Assembly (NCBI GenBank): GCA_002405525.1
Contig: DHLY01000155.1
Location: 4,682 to 18,286 of the forward strand
Length of the DNA stretch: 13,605 nt
Source of the DNA: Proteobacteria bacterium UBA4656
GTDB lineage: Bacteria; Pseudomonadota; Gammaproteobacteria; Xanthomonadales; Ahniellaceae
Direction: 5' to 3'
In this document: piece after piece, positions 2,701-11,745 of the stretch
Layout: each line of letters starts with the position of its first letter
How positions within the stretch are numbered: the first letter of the stretch is position 1
Notes under the pieces: model-generated
What the model saw: only the letters and a program-made list of their open reading frames with translations
Databases searched by the model: none
What the model was told of the DNA's origin: nothing
Made by a program: the position numbers and the translations under genes

Positions 2701-2854
2701 GCAGGACGTTGAGAAAGTGCTTTCCTGCACTTTCTCAACGTCGCGAGTTCGGCACGGGTCCGTACTCGCTCCCGACGAATCAATCGCTTTCGCGATCGAT
2801 TCGCGGGTGCGGCATCCCCGCCGCGCACTAGCCGGGTGTTTCTCAACACCCTGC
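2701..2854 (-). repeat. Dispersed structured repeat, copy A
   Basis: Read on the minus strand, this 154-bp element aligns over its whole length with 8623-8774. It has near-perfect 16-base terminal inverted repeats (2701-2716 and 2839-2854, two mismatches). It folds into consecutive stem-loops: 2834-2851 (7 bp), 2776-2803 (12 bp with one G-U, GAAA loop on the minus strand), 2743-2769 (GCGAGT/ACTCGC) and 2705-2742. It ends 47 bases before the OmpA-like start codon, so it would be transcribed in that gene's leader if the promoter at 2910-2937 is real. Confidence 0.75.
2705..2742. repeat. Perfect 16-bp hairpin within repeat A
   Basis: GACGTTGAGAAAGTGC at 2705-2720 is exactly the reverse complement of 2727-2742, with a 6-base loop (TTTCCT). 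It is less GC-rich than its surroundings. No T-run follows, so it is not an obvious terminator. The matching place in copy B (8739-8766) keeps a 9-bp stem with one mismatch. Confidence 0.85.
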
Positions 2855-2855
2855 C

Positions 2856-2909
2856 AGGGAACCTCTGAACAAGGATCCACACCCGCGGATCCTTGTTCAG
2901 AGGCTCCCT
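2856..2909. repeat. Long palindrome, 23-bp arms with one mismatch
   Basis: The arm at 2856-2878 pairs with 2887-2909 over 23 positions with a single mismatch (a G-U wobble in RNA) and an 8-base spacer. The inner 17 bp (CCTCTGAACAAGGATCC) are perfect. It abuts repeat A on one side and the predicted -10 box of the OmpA-like gene on the other. It could be a repetitive-element end, a MITE remnant or a leader structure; none of the other three repeat copies has it. Confidence 0.85.
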
Positions 2910-2937
2910 AGCGTAACCGCCCGGCCACGGGCGTCAA
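2910..2937 (-). promoter_or_regulatory. Candidate sigma-70 promoter for the OmpA-like gene
   Basis: On the minus strand TTGACG (2937-2932) is followed after 16 bases by TACGCT (2915-2910). The -35 matches the consensus at 5 of 6 positions. Transcription starting near 2903 would give a leader of about 250 bases containing the palindrome and repeat A. This is a sequence match only. Confidence 0.45.
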
Positions 2938-3010
2938 GGCGATGTCAATTCGGCGATGCGCGCCGCACCCAGCCCGGCGACCGCCACCGATGGGACGGCG
3001 CAGGGCGGGG

Positions 3011-3016
3011 TATGAT
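3011..3016 (+). promoter_or_regulatory. Candidate -10 box for the glutaredoxin fusion gene
   Basis: TATGAT lies 28 bases before the chosen ATG at 3045, with no convincing -35. It overlaps an in-frame upstream ATG at 3012, which argues that 3012 is not the true start. Confidence 0.4.
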
Positions 3017-3044
3017 CGCAGGCATCGCCCGCCCCGGAGTCCCC

Positions 3045-3968
3045 ATGAGCCTCGACCCCGTCCTGCGCGCCCGCATCGACGACCTGCTGTCGGCGCATCG
3101 CGTGGTGCTGTTCATGAAGGGCACGCGCAATGCGCCGCGCTGCGGCTTCTCCGCGGCAGCCGCGGACGCACTCAACGGTCTGCTGGACGATTATCTGAGC
3201 ATCGACGTTCTGGCCGACGATGCGATCCGCAACGGCATCAAGATCTACGGCAACTGGCCGACCATCCCGCAACTCTACGTCGGCGGCGAGCTGGTCGGGG
3301 GCTCCGACATCATCCTCGGCATGCTGGGGTCCGGAGAGCTGCACCAGGTGCTGGGCGTGCCCGCGCCCGACCTCACGCCGCCGGCGATCACCATCACCGA
3401 ACGCGCCGCCGCGGCGATCCGCGAGGCGATGGCGGACGCCGGCGCGGATCGCCTGCATCTGTCGATCGACCCGCAGTTCCACGCGCGGTTCCAGTTGAAG
3501 CCGGCGTCGGGCCGCGAGATCCGGGCCGAATCCGCCGGCATCGAGGTGCTGTTCGACCCCGCCAGCGCCCAGCGCGCGCGCGGCCTCGAGGTGGACTGGG
3601 CGGAGTCGGTGCAGGGATCGGGCTTGGTGATCCGCAACCCCAATGCACCGCCGGCGGTGAAGCCGATGGACGTCCACGCGCTCAAGGCCGCTCTCGACGC
3701 TGGCCGGGTCACCGTCATCGACGTGCGCCCGCCCGCGGATCGCGCGCGCGCGCCGTTCCCGGCAGCGCGGGTGCTCGACGAAGACGCACTGCCCGCGCTT
3801 TCGGCGTTGCCGAAAGACTCGCCGCTCGCCTTTCTCTGCCACCATGGCAACAGCAGCCGGTCGGCCGCGGAGCACTTCCGCGGCCTCGGTTTCCGCGAGG
3901 TTTTCAATGTGGAAGGCGGCATCGACGCATGGAGCCGGGAGATCGATCCCGACGTACCGCGCTACTGA
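3045..3968 (+). CDS. grxD: Monothiol glutaredoxin fused to IscA-like and rhodanese domains
   Basis: The 307-residue product has three parts. Residues 1-106 are a Grx4-type monothiol glutaredoxin with the active site CGFS (33-36), the TIPQLYVGGELVGGSDI glutathione-binding segment and FMKGT; such domains bind and pass on [2Fe-2S] clusters with glutathione. Residues about 113-206 resemble an A-type Fe-S carrier (ITERAAAAIREAM, GIEVLFDP, GSGLVIRNPN), but the cysteines are absent: the CGCG expected after NPN is replaced by APPAVKPM. Residues about 207-307 are a rhodanese with active-site loop CHHGNSS (Cys265). Cys33 and Cys265 are the only cysteines. The start at 3045 is preferred over 3012 because it has GGAG upstream and begins right at the glutaredoxin fold. 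It acts in the cytoplasm, probably in Fe-S or sulfur transfer. E. coli GrxD is about 115 residues, so this is an extended form. Confidence 0.9.
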   Translation: MSLDPVLRARIDDLLSAHRVVLFMKGTRNAPRCGFSAAAADALNGLLDDYLSIDVLADDAIRNGIKIYGNWPTIPQLYVGGELVGGSDIILGMLGSGELHQVLGVPAPDLTPPAITITERAAAAIREAMADAGADRLHLSIDPQFHARFQLKPASGREIRAESAGIEVLFDPASAQRARGLEVDWAESVQGSGLVIRNPNAPPAVKPMDVHALKAALDAGRVTVIDVRPPADRARAPFPAARVLDEDALPALSALPKDSPLAFLCHHGNSSRSAAEHFRGLGFREVFNVEGGIDAWSREIDPDVPRY

Positions 3969-4067
3969 GGATTCGCCTCGGCGCGGAGCGCCGCGGCCGC
4001 CCGGAGGGCATCCAGCAGGTTTTCGATCCGCTCTTCCGGACGAGAGAGGGCGGGGGAGGAACAGTGG

Positions 4068-4394
4068 ATGAAACGATCCAAGCACTGGCTGCCTGCATCC
4101 GTCGCGGCCGTGATGCTCGCCGGCTGCGGCTCCTCGCAGGAGGAACTCGCGGTCGCTGCCTGCAAGGCGGCGGTATCGGAGCGCCTGCAGGGCAAGGTGT
4201 GGAGCCTGGTGGATTCCGAGTTCCGGTCGGGCTATCGGACGGGCGAGCCGGGCCTCGCCGAGATCGTGGCGCCGGTCTACTTCGACAAGGGCCTGCCGGC
4301 GGAAACCCAGCAGAGGGTCACCTGCCGGGTTCAGTTCGACCCCGCCAATGCGAGTGCGGAGCCGGCGGTGATCGGACTCATTTTCCAGTGGTGA
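4068..4394 (+). CDS. Small putative lipoprotein
   Basis: The 108-residue product has a type II signal peptide: MKRSKHW, a hydrophobic stretch and the lipobox LAGC with Cys20 as the lipidated residue. Gly and Ser follow it, and no Asp stands at +2, which favours outer-membrane sorting. The mature part contains Cys32 and Cys86, possibly a disulfide, and a compact sequence ending in IGLIFQW. I do not recognise a family. GGGGGAGGAA upstream of the ATG is a strong ribosome binding site. It lies 99 bases after the glutaredoxin fusion on the same strand, so read-through is possible but no functional link is evident. It converges with the AMP nucleosidase gene. Confidence 0.75.
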   Translation: MKRSKHWLPASVAAVMLAGCGSSQEELAVAACKAAVSERLQGKVWSLVDSEFRSGYRTGEPGLAEIVAPVYFDKGLPAETQQRVTCRVQFDPANASAEPAVIGLIFQW

Positions 4395-4397
4395 GCG

Positions 4398-4434
4398 ATC
4401 GCCGCGTCGCGGTCCGCGCGGACGCGGTCGCCGC
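4398..4434. terminator. GC-rich dyad between convergent genes
   Basis: The 84-base gap between the converging lipoprotein and AMP nucleosidase genes holds the 12-bp palindrome GTCCGCGCGGAC (4412-4423), flanked by further GC-rich self-complementary sequence. Its position suits a two-way terminator, but no T-run is present, so this is weak. Confidence 0.3.
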
Positions 4435-4478
4435 CTGAGGCGCCGATCGAAGGCTCCGGCCGCGGGCCACGCCTACTC

Positions 4479-5255
4479 CTACTCGTCGAAGCGCAGGTGT
4501 TTGACGCTCTTGCCGTGGCGCCGGATCAGGCGCAGCGCCTCGATGCCGATCTGGATGTGGCTGTCGACGAAATGCTCGGTCACCTTGCGGTCCGACGCCT
4601 CGGTCTTCACGCCCTCCGGGATCATCGGCTGGTCGGACACCAGCAGCAGCGCGCCGGCCGGGATCGAATTGGCGAAGCCGGCGGCGAACACGGTCGCGGT
4701 TTCCATGTCGATCGCCATGCAGCGCAGCTTGCGCAGATACTCCTTGAACGCCTCGTCGTGCTCCCACACGCGGCGGTTGGTGGTGTAGACCGTGCCTGTC
4801 CAGTAGTCGTGGCCCAGGTCGCGAATCATGGTGGACACCGCTCGCTGCAGGGCGAAGGCCGGCAGTGCGGGCACCTCGGGCAGCAGGTAGTCGTTGGACG
4901 TACCCTCACCGCGGATGGCGGCGATGGGCAGCACCAGATCGCCCAACTGGTTTTTCTTCTTCAGCCCCCCGCACTTGCCGAGGAACAGCACTGCCCGGGG
5001 GCCGACCGCGCTCAGCAGGTCCATCACGGTGGCGGCGTTGGCGCTGCCCATGCCGAAATTGATCATTGTGATGCCGTCGGCGGTGGCGCTCGGCATCGGA
5101 CGGTCGCGGCCGACCACCGCGGCGCCGGTCATCTCGGCGAAGCGGTCGACGTAGCCGCCGAAGTTGGTCAGCAGGACGTGCTGGCCGAATTCGGTCAGCG
5201 GCTTGCCGGTGTAGCGGGGCAGCCAGTTGGAGACGATTTCCTGCTTGTCGCGCAT
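4479..5255 (-). CDS. amn: AMP nucleosidase, short form
   Basis: The 258-residue product belongs to the purine/uridine phosphorylase fold. It should hydrolyse the N-glycosidic bond of AMP to adenine and ribose 5-phosphate in the cytoplasm. Visible features are GMGSANAATVMDLL (68-81), the phosphate-loop region FLGKCGGL (91-98), TVYTTNRRVWEHDEAF (155-170), the nucleoside-binding AIDMETATVFA (181-191) and VSDQPM (206-211), with Asp208 in the catalytic position of this fold. E. coli Amn is about 484 residues with an extra N-terminal domain; this shorter version matches the compact AMP nucleosidase group. The start has little ribosome-binding sequence, but a -10-like box lies about 27 bases upstream and the next Met is at 42, inside the fold. 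It follows aceE on the same strand after 112 bases, with its own promoter candidate in the gap. Confidence 0.88.
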   Translation of the reverse strand: MRDKQEIVSNWLPRYTGKPLTEFGQHVLLTNFGGYVDRFAEMTGAAVVGRDRPMPSATADGITMINFGMGSANAATVMDLLSAVGPRAVLFLGKCGGLKKKNQLGDLVLPIAAIRGEGTSNDYLLPEVPALPAFALQRAVSTMIRDLGHDYWTGTVYTTNRRVWEHDEAFKEYLRKLRCMAIDMETATVFAAGFANSIPAGALLLVSDQPMIPEGVKTEASDRKVTEHFVDSHIQIGIEALRLIRRHGKSVKHLRFDE

Positions 5256-5282
5256 GCGCGGGCCGTGCCGGGGCGGGCCCGC

Positions 5283-5288
5283 ATTGTA
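5283..5288 (-). promoter_or_regulatory. Candidate -10 box of amn
   Basis: On the minus strand TACAAT (5288-5283) lies about 27 bases before the amn ATG. It sits within a 19-base sequence (plus strand GCCCGCATTGTAGCCCCGC, 5277-5295) identical to the one upstream of aceE. No -35 match is visible. Confidence 0.55.
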
Positions 5289-5367
5289 GCCCCGCGCGAC
5301 GCATCGCGCCCGCGGCGCCGCGGAGGGCCGGCGAGTGCCGTTGCGGAAGAATGCGGCGGCGGGGTGC

Positions 5368-8064
<2,697 letters not shown>

Positions 8065-8098
8065 GGCATGCTCCCGGTGGCGGCGCGCGGCGGCCCGC

Positions 8099-8104
8099 AT
8101 TGTA
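8099..8104 (-). promoter_or_regulatory. Candidate -10 box of aceE
   Basis: TACAAT on the minus strand lies 34 bases before the aceE ATG, inside a 19-base block (8093-8111) identical to the block upstream of amn. The expected -35 position falls inside the dyad at 8109-8130 and has no match to the consensus. Confidence 0.55.
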
Positions 8105-8108
8105 GCCC

Positions 8109-8130
8109 CGCCGCGCCGCACGGCGCGGCG
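8109..8130. promoter_or_regulatory. Perfect 10-bp dyad in the aceE promoter region
   Basis: CGCCGCGCCG (8109-8118) and CGGCGCGGCG (8121-8130) are exact reverse complements with a 2-base centre. The dyad covers the region where the -35 of aceE should lie, about 90-125 bases before the divergent regulator gene. It could be an operator for a dimeric repressor. The local sequence is nearly all G and C, so chance symmetry is possible. Confidence 0.35.
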
Positions 8131-8200
8131 GCGGCGCGGCGGGCGTAAACGTATGCAAGGCGGCGCGGCGGGGCCACTTCCAGGGCGCGATCGCCGCGGC

Positions 8201-8206
8201 TAGGCT
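8201..8206 (+). promoter_or_regulatory. Weak candidate -10 box for the XRE regulator
   Basis: TAGGCT lies 27 bases before the ATG at 8233, the same spacing as several other -10 candidates here. No -35 is seen. Confidence 0.3.
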
Positions 8207-8232
8207 CGCGCCTGCCGGAGGGAAATCACGCC

Positions 8233-8622
8233 ATGCGCCGCCGCCTGCCGCAGGACCCCGCGCTGCTCACCATCGCCGAACGCGTGCGCATCGCGCGCGA
8301 GCAGTCGGGCCTTTCCTGCGCCGCGCTGGCCCGCCAGGTCGGGGTGCGGCCCAGCGCCGCGGTGCAATGGGAAGCCGAGCACGGCACCACGCCCTCGGTG
8401 GAGAACCTCTCGCGCATCGCCACCGTCACCGGCATCGCCTTCGAATGGCTGGCCACCGGGCGCGGCGGCAAGGCGATCCGGCAAGACGGCGAAACCGAGG
8501 CCGTCGCCCTGTCCGACTTCGCGCAGAACCCCTACGAGGAGCGGTGGCTGCGCATCGGCCGCAAGGTGCCGCCGCGCCTGCGGGAATCGCTGCTGAAGTT
8601 CATCGAGGACGCCTGGCGTTAG
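8233..8622 (+). CDS. XRE-family helix-turn-helix protein
   Basis: The 129-residue product has a Cro/C1-type helix-turn-helix at about residues 12-75: TIAERVRIAREQSGLSCAALARQVGV, then SAAVQWEAEHGTTPSVENLSRIATVTGIAFEWLATG. This is the classic pattern of five helices ending in a WLxTG turn. The tail (about 95-129) is charged and probably helical, with no recognised sensor domain. It is expected to be a small DNA-binding transcriptional regulator. GGAGG upstream supports the ATG. It is divergent from aceE, with 168 bases between the start codons and a perfect dyad in the gap, so control of aceE or of itself is possible but unproven. Its TAG stop directly abuts repeat copy B. Confidence 0.85.
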   Translation: MRRRLPQDPALLTIAERVRIAREQSGLSCAALARQVGVRPSAAVQWEAEHGTTPSVENLSRIATVTGIAFEWLATGRGGKAIRQDGETEAVALSDFAQNPYEERWLRIGRKVPPRLRESLLKFIEDAWR

Positions 8623-8774
8623 CAGGCTGCCGAGAAACACCCTGCTGGCGCGCAGCATGGATGGCGCGCTCGCGAATCGATCGCGCGAGCGGCTGATTCG
8701 GCGGGACCGAGTCCGGACATGCGGCAGACTCGCGACGCCGAGAAAGTTCGGGAAAGCACCTTCTCGACAGCCTG
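8623..8774 (+). repeat. Dispersed structured repeat, copy B
   Basis: This 152-bp element begins at the base after the XRE stop codon. Its ends are near-perfect 14-base inverted repeats (8623-8636 and 8761-8774, one mismatch). It aligns over its whole length with the reverse complement of 2701-2854, sharing CGCGAATCGATCGCG, GCTGATTCG/GATTGATTCG and ACTCGCGACG blocks. Stem-loops match those of copy A: 8673-8700 (GCGA loop), 8708-8732 (CGAGTC/GACTCG) and 8739-8766. Together with GC-rich spacer to about 8880 it fills the 293-base gap before the next gene; I see nothing else there. Confidence 0.75.
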
Positions 8775-8880
8775 TTGCAGCGCGCGCCGGCCGGCGGCGC
8801 GCGGTCGACCGCCATGCAGCGCGCCGACGACGGGTGCGATGGAGCAGACGGGCGTCGCCGCCGCGCGCCGCCGCGCGCCG

Positions 8881-8886
8881 TAAGAT
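8881..8886 (+). promoter_or_regulatory. Candidate -10 box for the secreted-protein/metalloprotease pair
   Basis: TAAGAT lies 29 bases before the GTG start at 8916. No -35 match is visible upstream in the GC-only sequence. It would drive the coupled two-gene unit. Confidence 0.4.
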
Positions 8887-8915
8887 GCGGTCCCCGAACT
8901 CCGGAGCCGCGTCTC

Positions 8916-9272
8916 GTGAAATATCGTCTGGCGGTACTGGCGCTGGTGGCCCTCGCGCTGCCGCCGCACGCAGCGCACGGCGGGCCGTCGGAGACCGCGC
9001 CGCCGGCACCCGGCGCCGGCGTCAAGGCCCACCTCGATCCCCGCTCCGGGCGGATGCTGGAGCGTCCCGCGAAGGCTGAAGCGGGCGCGCTGTCCGGCGG
9101 TCCGCGCGCGCCGGACTTCTCGCGCATGCGCGAGGAACAGCTGCCGGACGGCACCGTGCTGCTGCATCCGGAAGGCCAACTGCGCACCGTCTCGGTGGTA
9201 CGCCGGTCGAGCGACGGGTCGTTCGCCGCGGCCTGCGAAGCGACACCGGTAGCGCCGGAGCCGCCCCGGTGA
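8916..9272 (+). CDS. Small secreted protein, post-PEP-CTERM-1-like pattern
   Basis: The chosen start is GTG at 8916, with GGAG 9 bases upstream and a clean signal peptide right after it (MKYRLAVLALVALALPPHAAHG); earlier in-frame ATGs would add a non-hydrophobic Arg-rich stretch. The 118-residue product then has a Pro-rich segment, LDPRSGRM (40-47), LPDGTVLLHPEG (76-87) and a terminal SVVRRSSDGSFAAACE (93-108). The order DPxTG, DGT, VVRxxDGS, Cys resembles the small exported proteins I know as the post-PEP-CTERM-1 type, whose function is unclear. This match is from memory and of moderate strength. Its TGA overlaps the GTG of the metalloprotease-like gene (GTGA, 9269-9272), so the two are probably translationally coupled and may work together, for example as an export partner or inhibitor. 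Confidence 0.75.
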   Translation: MKYRLAVLALVALALPPHAAHGGPSETAPPAPGAGVKAHLDPRSGRMLERPAKAEAGALSGGPRAPDFSRMREEQLPDGTVLLHPEGQLRTVSVVRRSSDGSFAAACEATPVAPEPPR

Positions 9273-11449
9273 GGTCCCGCGCAGCGGCGTTCGCGATCGC
9301 AGCGACGCTTTGCGCGGCCGCAGCCCCCAGGGCCCACGCGGCGACGATCGCCATCGTCAACCTGGACGGCCCCAACGAGGGCTTCAACGATCCGTCGCCG
9401 GCCACTCCCGAAGGCGGGAACAACGCCACCACCCGCGGCGCACAGCGGCTCGCGGTGTTCCAGCGGGCGGCCGACATCCTCGGCGCGCAGCTGCAGAGCG
9501 GTGTGACGATCAAGGTCGGCGCGCGCTTCGACTCCTTCAACGCCGATCCGGGCTTCCAGCAACCGGCATGCGCCAACGGCAGTGGGATTCTCGGCTTTGC
9601 GGGCCCGCAGACCTTCGCCAGGGACTTCGCCAACGCCCCGGTCGCGGGCACCTGGTATCCCATCGCGCTGGCCGAGGCGCGCGCAGGCGCGAACCTCAAC
9701 GGAACCGCCAACGAGGTCGACACCTCGTTCAACTCGGACGTCGACGCCGCCTGCCTAGCCCCGGGCACGCGCTTCTGGTACGGCACCACGACGACCACCA
9801 CGTCCCAGAACTTCCTGCCCTTGCTGCCCGTGGTGCTGCACGAGCTGACGCACGGGCTCGGTTTCCTGACCCTGGTCTGCACCTCGCCCTCCGGCTGCGG
9901 CGGCAGCCCGCAAGGGTCGTTCGCGAGCGGATTTCCCGACGTCTGGACCCTGTTCCTCGCCAACAGCGGCAATCCCTCGCTGACCTGGCGCAACATGAGC
10001 ATCGCGCAGCGCGCGGCGTCGATCACCGGCGACCCGAACACCGTCTGGACGGGCGCCAACGTCACCGGCGCCATCCCCGGGCAGGGAATCAGCGCCGGGC
10101 TGAGCAACGGCCTGCTGCGCATGCATGCGCCGGCCGCCGTGCAACCGGGGTCGAGCATCTCGCACTTTTCCAGCGCCGCGCTGCCCAATCTATTGATGGA
10201 GCCGGCGATCAACAGCAATCTGTTCGCCCAGCTCGACCTGACCATCCCGTTGCTGCGCGACATCGGCTGGCTGCCGGCGACCGCCAATGCGGCCCCGGTG
10301 ATCACCGCCCCGACGGCGTTCAGCGCCCAGGAAGACACGACGCTCGTGCTGTCCGGCATCGGCTTCGCTGACCCGGACGCCGGCAGCACGGCGCTGACCG
10401 TGACCTTCTCGATCCCGGTCGGCAGCGGCGCGATCAGCGTGGCGCCGTCCGCTGGGGTGACCGTCGGCGGCGGCGCGACCGCACGCACGCTGACCGGCAC
10501 CCTCGGCGCACTCAACAGCGCACTTGCGGGCGGCAGCGTCAGCTACGCGCCCGCCGCTAACGCGAACGGCTCCATGATGCTCACCGTCGGCGCGGTCGAC
10601 GCCGCCAGCCCGCCGGGCAGCGACAGCGAGACGGTCACGATCGACATCGCCGCCGTCAACGATCCACCCGGCCTCACCCTGCCCGGCTCGATCGGCATCA
10701 CGGAGGACCTGGCCGGCACCGTGATCCCGGTGTCGTTCGCCGACGTGGATGCGGGGACGGGCGGCGTGGTGGCGACCTTCTCGGTGCCGGCCGGCACGCT
10801 GTCGGCGACCGGCACAGGTACGGTCACGGTGGGCGGTACGCCGACCGCGCGCACGCTCGCCGGCACGATCGCCGACCTCAACGCCTTCCTGTCGCTGGGC
10901 GCGCTGTCGTACACGGGAGCGCCGAATGCCAATGGCGCGGTGGCGCTCGGCGTCACGCTCAACGACCAGGGCAACAGCGGCAGCGGTGGCGCGCAGTCGG
11001 CCAGCGGCGGCACCACGCTGGAGGTCACGGCTGCGAACGATGCACCCACGGTGTCGGCCCCCGCCGCCCTCGCGGTGCAGGCGGGCGCTGCCGCAGCCGT
11101 CACGCCGGTGTCCTATGCCGACGTCGATGCGCCCTACCCCGGCAACGTGGTGGCGACCTACGCGGCGGCGAGCGGAACCTTCAGCGCGACCGCAGGCAGC
11201 GGTGTCAACGTGTCCGGCAGCGGCAGCGGAACCCTGACGCTCACCGGAACGCTGGCCGCGCTGAACGCCTTCCTCGCCGTCACACCCGTGCAGTACGTCG
11301 CGGCAGCGGACGCCACCGCGCCGGTGGCGCTGACGTTGACGATCAACGACCAGGGCAACGTCGGTGGCGCTCCGCTGTCGGCCACGGCGACCGTGACTGT
11401 CGACGTGACGCCGGCGGGGACGATCTATCGCAACGGCTTCGAGCCCTGA
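9269..11449 (+). CDS. Secreted HExxH metalloprotease-like protein with three C-terminal beta-repeat domains
   Basis: The 726-residue product starts with a GTG coupled to the preceding stop. Residues 1-24 are a signal peptide (AHA cleavage region). The catalytic-type domain spans about 25-335 and contains HELTHGLGF (His191, Glu192, His195: zinc-binding HExxH). Later SISHFSS (His299) and NLLMEP (Met310), then DLTIPLLRDIGW, suit a third zinc ligand and a Met-turn. RNMSIAQRAASITG and VWTGANV are also typical of a group of secreted bacterial metalloproteases that, as I recall, usually carry a PA domain between VTxAVP and the third-ligand region; here only about 30 residues separate them, so PA is absent. 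Three repeats follow (about 341-464, 465-592, 593-713), each with a NDPP/NDAP-like junction and TARTLTGTLxxLN, probably beta-sandwiches. The protein ends TIYRNGFEP. Activity is inferred from motifs only. Confidence 0.85.
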   Translation: MRSRAAAFAIAATLCAAAAPRAHAATIAIVNLDGPNEGFNDPSPATPEGGNNATTRGAQRLAVFQRAADILGAQLQSGVTIKVGARFDSFNADPGFQQPACANGSGILGFAGPQTFARDFANAPVAGTWYPIALAEARAGANLNGTANEVDTSFNSDVDAACLAPGTRFWYGTTTTTTSQNFLPLLPVVLHELTHGLGFLTLVCTSPSGCGGSPQGSFASGFPDVWTLFLANSGNPSLTWRNMSIAQRAASITGDPNTVWTGANVTGAIPGQGISAGLSNGLLRMHAPAAVQPGSSISHFSSAALPNLLMEPAINSNLFAQLDLTIPLLRDIGWLPATANAAPVITAPTAFSAQEDTTLVLSGIGFADPDAGSTALTVTFSIPVGSGAISVAPSAGVTVGGGATARTLTGTLGALNSALAGGSVSYAPAANANGSMMLTVGAVDAASPPGSDSETVTIDIAAVNDPPGLTLPGSIGITEDLAGTVIPVSFADVDAGTGGVVATFSVPAGTLSATGTGTVTVGGTPTARTLAGTIADLNAFLSLGALSYTGAPNANGAVALGVTLNDQGNSGSGGAQSASGGTTLEVTAANDAPTVSAPAALAVQAGAAAAVTPVSYADVDAPYPGNVVATYAAASGTFSATAGSGVNVSGSGSGTLTLTGTLAALNAFLAVTPVQYVAAADATAPVALTLTINDQGNVGGAPLSATATVTVDVTPAGTIYRNGFEP

Positions 11450-11479
11450 GAGGCCGTGTTCGAGCACTGAGAGGCCGAG
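11438..11479 (+). repeat. 21-bp tandem duplication spanning a stop codon
   Basis: Positions 11438-11458 and 11459-11479 match at 19 of 21 bases. The first unit holds the last codons and TGA of the metalloprotease-like gene (Phe-Glu-Pro-stop); the second repeats the pattern as Phe-Glu-His-stop in the same frame. It looks like a tandem duplication of the gene end. Confidence 0.85.
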
Positions 11480-11497
11480 AAGAAAACAGCCTCTCAG
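11467..11497 (+). terminator. Hairpin after the metalloprotease-like gene
   Basis: CTGAGAGGC (11467-11475) pairs perfectly with GCCTCTCAG (11489-11497) around an A-rich 13-base loop, 17 bases after the stop. There is no T-run, so termination is uncertain. It also forms the first stem of repeat copy C1. The first tandem unit carries a second copy of the left arm at 11445-11453 that could pair instead. Confidence 0.4.
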
Positions 11498-11600
11498 GCA
11501 GGCCATGGTTGCCGCGCGCGCGAGTCATTCGCGCCAGTGCATGATTTGCAGGAGCGAGTCCGGGCTTGTGCCGGACTCGCAACCGGAAAAACTCACAGGA
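11467..11600 (+). repeat. Dispersed structured repeat, copy C1
   Basis: It aligns in order with copy B: GGCCGAGAA, CATGG, GCGCGCGAGTC, GCATGATT, GCGAGTCCGG and GGACTCGC blocks. The third stem is a perfect 10 bp here (11554-11563 with 11571-11580), longer than in A or B although the stem sequence has changed. With copy C2 it fills most of the 346-base gap between the metalloprotease-like gene and maeB. More diverged than A and B. Confidence 0.6.
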
Positions 11601-11627
11601 TGCGGGTTCCTTCACTGGCTCCGAACG

Positions 11628-11745
11628 TCCTGGAGGAACAGTCTCCCTGGCGCTGCCATCGAAGGCGCGCGCGGTTCGCGCGCACCGCAGCCTGATCCGT
11701 GGCGACACGTCCGAACCTGCGTCCGGCTCGCGATCGGAGAAACCG
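11628..11745 (+). repeat. Dispersed structured repeat, copy C2 (diverged)
   Basis: It shares ordered blocks with copy B: CCCTGGCGC, GGCGCGC, CTGATCCG, CGTCCGAAC, TGCG and GGCTCGCGA, then GGAGAAA. The GC stem around 11660-11690 (GCGCGCG/CGCGCGC) is kept but the third stem is poor. It directly follows C1 in the same orientation, which suggests tandem arrangement. The alignment was done by eye. Confidence 0.45.

Follow-up and report, generated by a model that had tools for sequence, protein, structure and literature searches.

The intergenic regions of a 13,605-nt stretch of DNA from the gammaproteobacterium UBA4656 (contig DHLY01000155.1; hereafter the window) contain, between positions 2,701 and 11,745, repeats that resemble one another and are rich in predicted hairpins, which raises the question of what these repeats are, how they spread and what they might do. 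Our analysis indicates that they are, almost certainly, members of a family of miniature inverted-repeat transposable elements (MITEs). On balance, we lean towards a more specific reading, in which these MITEs are mobilised by transposases of the IS5 family and carry hairpins resembling binding sites of the post-transcriptional regulator RsmA/CsrA, and may thereby spread such sites on mRNAs.

An initial annotation of the window had proposed a dispersed repeat family with four copies, here called A, B, C1 and C2. When local alignment scores were compared with those of 1000 dinucleotide-preserving shuffles, the pairs A-B (score 141, shuffle maximum 33), B-C1 (64, maximum 29) and A-C1 (54, maximum 32) stood out clearly; no score above 31 against B was reached by any of 159 other segments of the window. 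Copies A and B can be aligned over their full length with no gaps (153 nt, 78% identity), each has terminal inverted repeats matching at 13 of 15 bases, and both show, as had been described, a GNRA-type loop on hairpin three and a hairpin of the form CGAGT...ACTCG; their coordinates hold to within one or two bases. The family is thus real, with further copies in relatives, and the number of copies in the window has to be revised. C2 reached 44 against B (0 of 1000 shuffles), 29 against C1 (1 of 1000) and 20 against A (182 of 1000), and a covariance model of the element core gave it 16.3 bits (E-value 0.031), placing it below A, B, C1 and five other matches, two of which lie outside the elements. 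With scores this weak C2 would at best be a decayed remnant, so that the four copies become two full ones, one worn one and one doubtful one. Copy A scored 182.7 bits with covariance model R1, which was built from three sequences including A itself; C1 is recognisable through its core, and its left end resembles the fourth end type described below.

Searches in the genomes of relatives, Rehaibacterium terrae included, revealed how widely the element is distributed. Copy B as a DNA query found 21 matches in R. terrae at an E-value of 0.01 and hit 6 of the 20 genomes in a first set; at 1e-4 it hit 20 of 149 genomes from the family. A covariance model constructed from A, B and C1 found 27 matches in R. 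terrae at 0.1 and had matches in 4 of 8 genomes. The core model, which covers hairpins P2 to P4 and was built from 38 sequences, recognised the element in 59 of 395 genomes of Rehaibacterium's family at 1e-4 and, at 1e-5, in 54 of 299 genomes drawn from the order and in 18 of 369 drawn from the class; these draws overlap, with G001 present in all of them and other genomes also drawn more than once. Since just 5-14 candidates were scored per genome in these large searches, the copy numbers per genome are floors. In all, 226 distinct copies were collected, and the hosts appear to be Lysobacterales together with some other genomes of the class. One genome consisting of a single contig of 2.84 Mb (G323) holds at least 11 copies, of which the ten fetched are near-identical. 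In another (G139), several contigs end inside copies (L201, L202, L204-L206), as expected where near-identical copies break assembly.

Full copies are stable hairpins throughout, in the order P1-P2-P3-P4-P5, with the end hairpins P1 and P5 containing the terminal inverted repeats and P2-P4 forming the core. Both ends were located by motif in 89 of 133 copies (25 had no left motif and 19 no right motif), and the modal length of 152 bp is shared by 55 of these 89 and by 85 of the 127 copies of an enlarged, dereplicated set. There are three main end types, I (CAGGCTGTTGA), II (GGAACCTCTGA) and III (GGCAACGCTGA), and a fourth (TGAGAGC... or TGAGCGC...) in two R. terrae copies, L119 and L121. Both ends are of one type in 81 of the 89 copies and 114 of the 127, and we read the mixed cases as misplaced ends. 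Ends may also have been swapped between types: a tree of 100 cores, for which twelve end-type labels were assigned by eye and four rows were given none, needs 13 such changes (minimum 3; shuffled mean 43.3), though its well-supported branches force just one origin per type. Some copies have altered hairpins: a longer, nested hairpin (CAGAGCCTGCCCCC...GGGGG) takes the place of the P5 tip in L151 (1501-1679) and L208, and an extra GGACCCCGGATCAGGTCCGGGG hairpin sits on the tip of P4 in L103 (1501-1677) and L110.

The flanks of the element carry what looks like the footprint of transposition. Identical 4-mers lie on both sides of 44 of the 89 copies, compared with a mean of 11.0 and a maximum of 20 in 5000 re-pairings of the flanks, and 23 of the 44 are non-palindromic; in the enlarged set the count is 62 of 127 (re-paired mean 17.6, maximum 29), 31 of them non-palindromic. 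The tetramers fit YTAR on the left in 50 of the 89 copies and on the right likewise in 50, and IS5 itself prefers YTAR targets. In the window, neither full copy retains an intact duplication: A, read in element orientation, is flanked by CTGG and CCGG, and B by TTAG and TTGC. A search for PF05598 transposases yielded 12 loci in 7 of 16 genomes. Six of these (in G042, G085 and G094) have element-like ends, flanked by CTAA, CTAG or TTAG/ATAG, and the other six have different ends or could not be bounded. Indeed, the left end of the G042 insertion sequence is identical at 15 of 15 bases to that of element copy L152 in the same genome, and all three transposases tested (340, 360.5 and 275.5 bits) exceed the cut-off of 140 of the IS5-family model NF033581.

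A comparison between species provides an occupied and an empty site. In G323, one copy lies directly 3' of a TAG stop codon; when this site was compared in 24 congeners, 12 aligned on both sides with no copy between, and in another 11 the left alignment ended before reaching the site, and no core match was present in the locus fetched. In G344, a type III copy lies between the aligned parts. The relatives end in CGCTGA here, and the exact CTAG expected before insertion was not seen among them. We propose that IS5-family transposases, recognising the same ends, would mobilise these ~152-bp non-autonomous elements in trans and insert them at tetramers resembling YTAR, in a good number of cases precisely at the stop codon of a gene. 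In being short and dispersed, in having inverted ends like those of an IS5-family insertion sequence in the same genome and in being flanked by 4-bp duplications, the elements resemble the known MITEs of IS5-family insertion sequences; they differ in that their interior does not derive from the insertion sequences examined and in possessing a conserved, covarying core of several hairpins.

The tendency to lie at stop codons is apparent from gene positions. In 33 of 122 gene ends facing an element, the flanking tetramer has the gene's stop codon as its final three bases (sense side 22 of 64, antisense side 11 of 58, p 0.068), and the stop is TAG in 25 of these 33 compared with 17 of the 89 other gene ends. 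Copy B is such a case, its left flank TTAG containing the stop of the helix-turn-helix gene. This pattern fits YTAR targeting combined with selection against insertion into coding sequence, and it provides a simple reason for elements lying in 3' untranslated regions.

The core is conserved as a structure. In 38 copies aligned with MAFFT, after 7 of 45 had been dropped (L106, L135, L137, L141, L144, L152b and L153, mostly for P2 aligned out of register), 21 of 32 core pairs changed on both sides, and the covariation score was 0.335, compared with 0.138 (standard deviation 0.008) for shuffled and at most 0.082 for slid pairings. In 100 distinct copies, aligned by fitting to model R2 and hence leaning towards it, 28 of the 32 pairs covary (0.392, compared with 0.134, standard deviation 0.005, and at most 0.063). 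The initial annotation had suggested either a mobile, MITE-like element or a structured RNA family, and both halves of that suggestion hold up. Its proposal hinged on further copies, alignments beyond the level of shuffled sequence and covariation; all three were found, with C2 alone left in doubt. The IS5 link, the stop-codon sites and the ANGGAN loop are additions to it.

That loop, at the tip of P2, suggests what the core might do. In the 100 copies the tip reads C98 A95 N G98 G95 A96 N G98 (number of copies with each base), the two N positions having 1.67 and 1.07 bits of variation and the other six at most 0.28, and the stem two and three pairs below the loop is variable yet re-paired. 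Across the collection, CANGGANG occurs within P2 in 199 of 226 copies. In P5, where stems vary, 59 of 66 distinct sequences have a GGA no more than 5 nt from the predicted tip. According to the available portion of PMC7652899, RNA bound by RsmE is a hairpin whose ANGGAN loop is contacted at its A and its GGA but variable at N, and systematic evolution of ligands by exponential enrichment (SELEX) gives the consensus RUACARGGAUGU; for RsmA, the available portion of PMC3937308 gives ACARGGAUG. The P2 loop, A-N-G-G-A-N closed by C-G, is the loop thus described for RsmE. CsrA family members were detected in 16 of 16 genomes tested, and the CsrA of G323 aligns with solved CsrA chains over 55-57 residues. 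In G079 (C30 and C1), five CsrA-family matches lie in or beside one canonical gene, some of them in longer frames.

We suggest that, once an element is transcribed with its neighbouring gene, P2 and P5 could bind RsmA/CsrA, the element acting as a binding module hung on mRNAs, often just past the stop codon, and the many copies together as scattered RsmA sinks. Judged by sequence, these hairpins probably do bind; that they have been selected for a role in the host, as dispersed sites or sinks, is possible though doubtful. MITEs are often treated as debris, and a conserved interior with regulator-type hairpins would be a direct route for selfish rewiring of post-transcriptional control. It would then also become testable what opposes RsmA in Xanthomonads and related bacteria.

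A number of observations count against this picture. As to mobilisation, R. terrae has many copies, and the one PF05598 locus found there has other ends; the element core is absent from the five insertion sequences scanned. As to binding, CANGGANG is present in B alone among the window copies, the P2 loop being GGGGAT in A and ATGGTT, with the GGA lost, in C1. The available portion of PMC7652899 gives a bridging range of 10-63 nt, compared with 92 nt between the GGA tips of P2 and P5 in B, and SELEX hairpins of mostly four pairs or fewer, compared with seven in P2. Among 644 hexaloops on stems of at least 7 bp at 80 unselected loci, eight were ANGGAN, which was not the commonest; five of the eight were closed by C (one in Luteimonas, four in Dyella). 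GGA counts are themselves no proof and a weak predictor, since RsmA still bound, and function was kept in, a variant of the RNA RsmU in which all four predicted GGA motifs had been replaced (available portion of PMC7694677). As to a host role, the sense bias that speaks for our reading, a sense:antisense ratio of 69:37 in same-direction gene pairs (161 copies, p 0.0024; 36:19 in the first 92 copies and 31:17, p 0.059, in 67 new ones), comes from a simple composition-based gene caller and from related copies that are not independent. Moreover, the P2 loop is intact in 62 of 69 sense and 34 of 37 antisense copies; with loops equally intact in both orientations, a host-level role is not favoured. 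A motif kept fixed in either orientation can be explained by a selfish module, or by descent from source copies, no less readily than by regulation in the host.

The independence of the loop from orientation is also what might be seen if the hairpins acted at the DNA level only, as single-stranded hairpins or cruciforms that aid transposase or replication, with the loop as a DNA recognition feature and RsmA uninvolved. The fixed modal length and the presence of the recognised ends within P1 and P5 agree with this, as does the lack of a clean strand signal: G.T pairs number 121 and A.C pairs 58 in a search that itself favours G.T, and columns with at least one such pair 27 and 24. Against a DNA-level function stand the sense bias and the fit of P2 to ANGGAN at both its fixed and its free positions. 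The full-length insertion sequences with the same ends lack the core, and three of them (L161, L162 and L167) also lack such hairpins, which argues that the transposase does not need them. We regard this explanation as unlikely.

Quite improbable, in our view, is a host structured RNA family, either a small RNA or a 3'-end element, that was spread by transposition and serves a function unrelated to RsmA, for example in RNA processing or transcript stability. Covariation, the stable hairpins throughout, the sense bias and the many copies directly 3' of stop codons would all be accounted for, but the fixed-and-free pattern of P2, the GGA of P5 and the loops of a second family in Dyella (see below) would be left unexplained. 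Chance likeness among GC-rich spacers might apply to C2, whose score is close to random in one of the comparisons and low with the core model. For A, B and C1 it is refuted by the shuffles, by the 226 distinct copies and by covariation, and it is negligible as an explanation of the family.

Among known RNAs, the nearest counterparts to hairpins that may bind RsmA are the CsrB/RsmZ-type RNAs, which belong to an Rfam clan with RsmW and also have GGA hairpin loops of ANGGAN form; one element copy consists of five tandem units. Each of those RNAs is encoded by one gene, whereas here we find a dispersed mobile element with no Rfam match at gathering score: nothing reached it on the window, where the only match was mir-2432 (E-value 2.9), or on seven further loci. 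Hairpins P4-P5 of L209, L118 and L132 resemble gyrA RNA (RF01740) with 32.9, 30.1 and 26.9 bits, all under the gathering score of 45, and two adjacent GC-rich hairpins may explain much of this. ERIC/IRU, NEMIS/Correia, YPAL and similar repeats are, by description, like this element in being dispersed, structured and roughly 100-170 bp long, and to our knowledge they have no ANGGAN loop. RsmU of Xanthomonas campestris, likened here by description and not by sequence, also binds RsmA, originates from a 3' untranslated region and has GGA motifs, but it is reported as a single RNA from one mRNA (available portion of PMC7694677). A partial open-access literature search, covering titles and the beginnings of abstracts, found no account of this element family or of CsrA/RsmA sites in MITEs.

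The five-unit copy (L354 1620-2290, in G412) is an array of 130-nt units P2-P3-P4-P5 with five CATGGATG and five CCAGGATGG tips, and looks like a ready-made multi-site RsmA RNA. If so, its ten GGA hairpins would show the birth of a dedicated sponge RNA from a transposon. A second array (L355 1520-1860, in G776) has three tandem core units 126 nt apart, from which CANGGANG is absent.

Near aceE in Dyella silvae, an 86-nt stretch (L018 9055-9140, minus strand) forms two hairpins with loops ATGGAT and AGGGAT and belongs to a second dispersed family. It has 52 matches in D. silvae, 29 in D. kyungheensis, 10 each in D. halodurans and Rhodanobacter panaciterrae and one each in Rhodanobacter sp. T12-5 and Luteimonas granuli, counts in which some places overlap on opposite strands; a search of Rudaea gave no match. 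Of the 44 rows retrieved, five or more show a palindromic copy read on its opposite strand. The first loop has all four bases at N on stems that differ and still pair, the second is mostly AGGAN or AGGGAN, and the family scores 34 bits with Rfam RsmW, below the gathering score of 52. It appears distinct from the window element, yet of a similar two-site design. At several loci, weaker opposite-strand matches occur ~300-340 nt away, as if they were the ends of a larger unit. It is tempting, though speculative, to suppose that at least two sequence-distinct transposable families seed dozens of GGA-hairpin pairs into mRNA ends in Lysobacterales, so that transposition would partly determine how strong the Rsm system is and how it is wired.

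Table 1 Element copies, their hairpins and the genes of the window
Feature	Position	Strand	Remarks
Copy A	2702-2853	-	full element, 152 bp, end type I (CAGGGTGTTGA / CAGGACGTTGA)
P5 of A	2711-2742	-	right-end hairpin, loop AGGAAA
P4 of A	2743-2769	-	GCGAGT...ACTCGC
P3 of A	2771-2807	-	GAAA loop
P2 of A	2809-2824	-	loop GGGGAT; first A of ANGGAN changed, GGA kept
Palindrome	2858-2907		50 bp, near-perfect; type II ends (GGAACCTCTGAACAAG / GGAGCCTCTGAACAAG); flanks CCAG and CTAG
Copy B	8623-8774	+	full element, 152 bp, end type I
CATGGATG in P2 of B	8656-8663	+	fits CANGGANG
GGA in P5 region of B	8751-8753	+	92 nt past GGA of P2
Copy C1	11467-11600	+	worn copy; core 11497-11583 recognised (63.3 bits), ends worn
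C2	11628-11745	+	possible decayed remnant, insecure
OmpA/cadherin-domain gene	611-2653	-
Glutaredoxin-rhodanese gene	3012-3968
Phosphorylase-superfamily gene	4479-5255	-
aceE, pyruvate dehydrogenase E1 gene		-
Helix-turn-helix gene	8233-8622		TAG stop adjoins copy B
Gene for 726-amino-acid protein	9269-11449		no Pfam match at E-value 0.001
Malic enzyme/phosphotransacetylase gene

The palindrome listed in Table 1, whose type II ends are IS5-like, abuts copy A and has its left-flank tetramer in common with it; an exact-pattern search for this palindrome gave no match in 10 of 10 genomes. Among the best 80 of at least 593 aceE loci, that nearest to the window's is from Rehaibacterium terrae (79%). 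The 726-amino-acid protein is predicted to be secreted and, by eye, has repeats and a HELTHG stretch.

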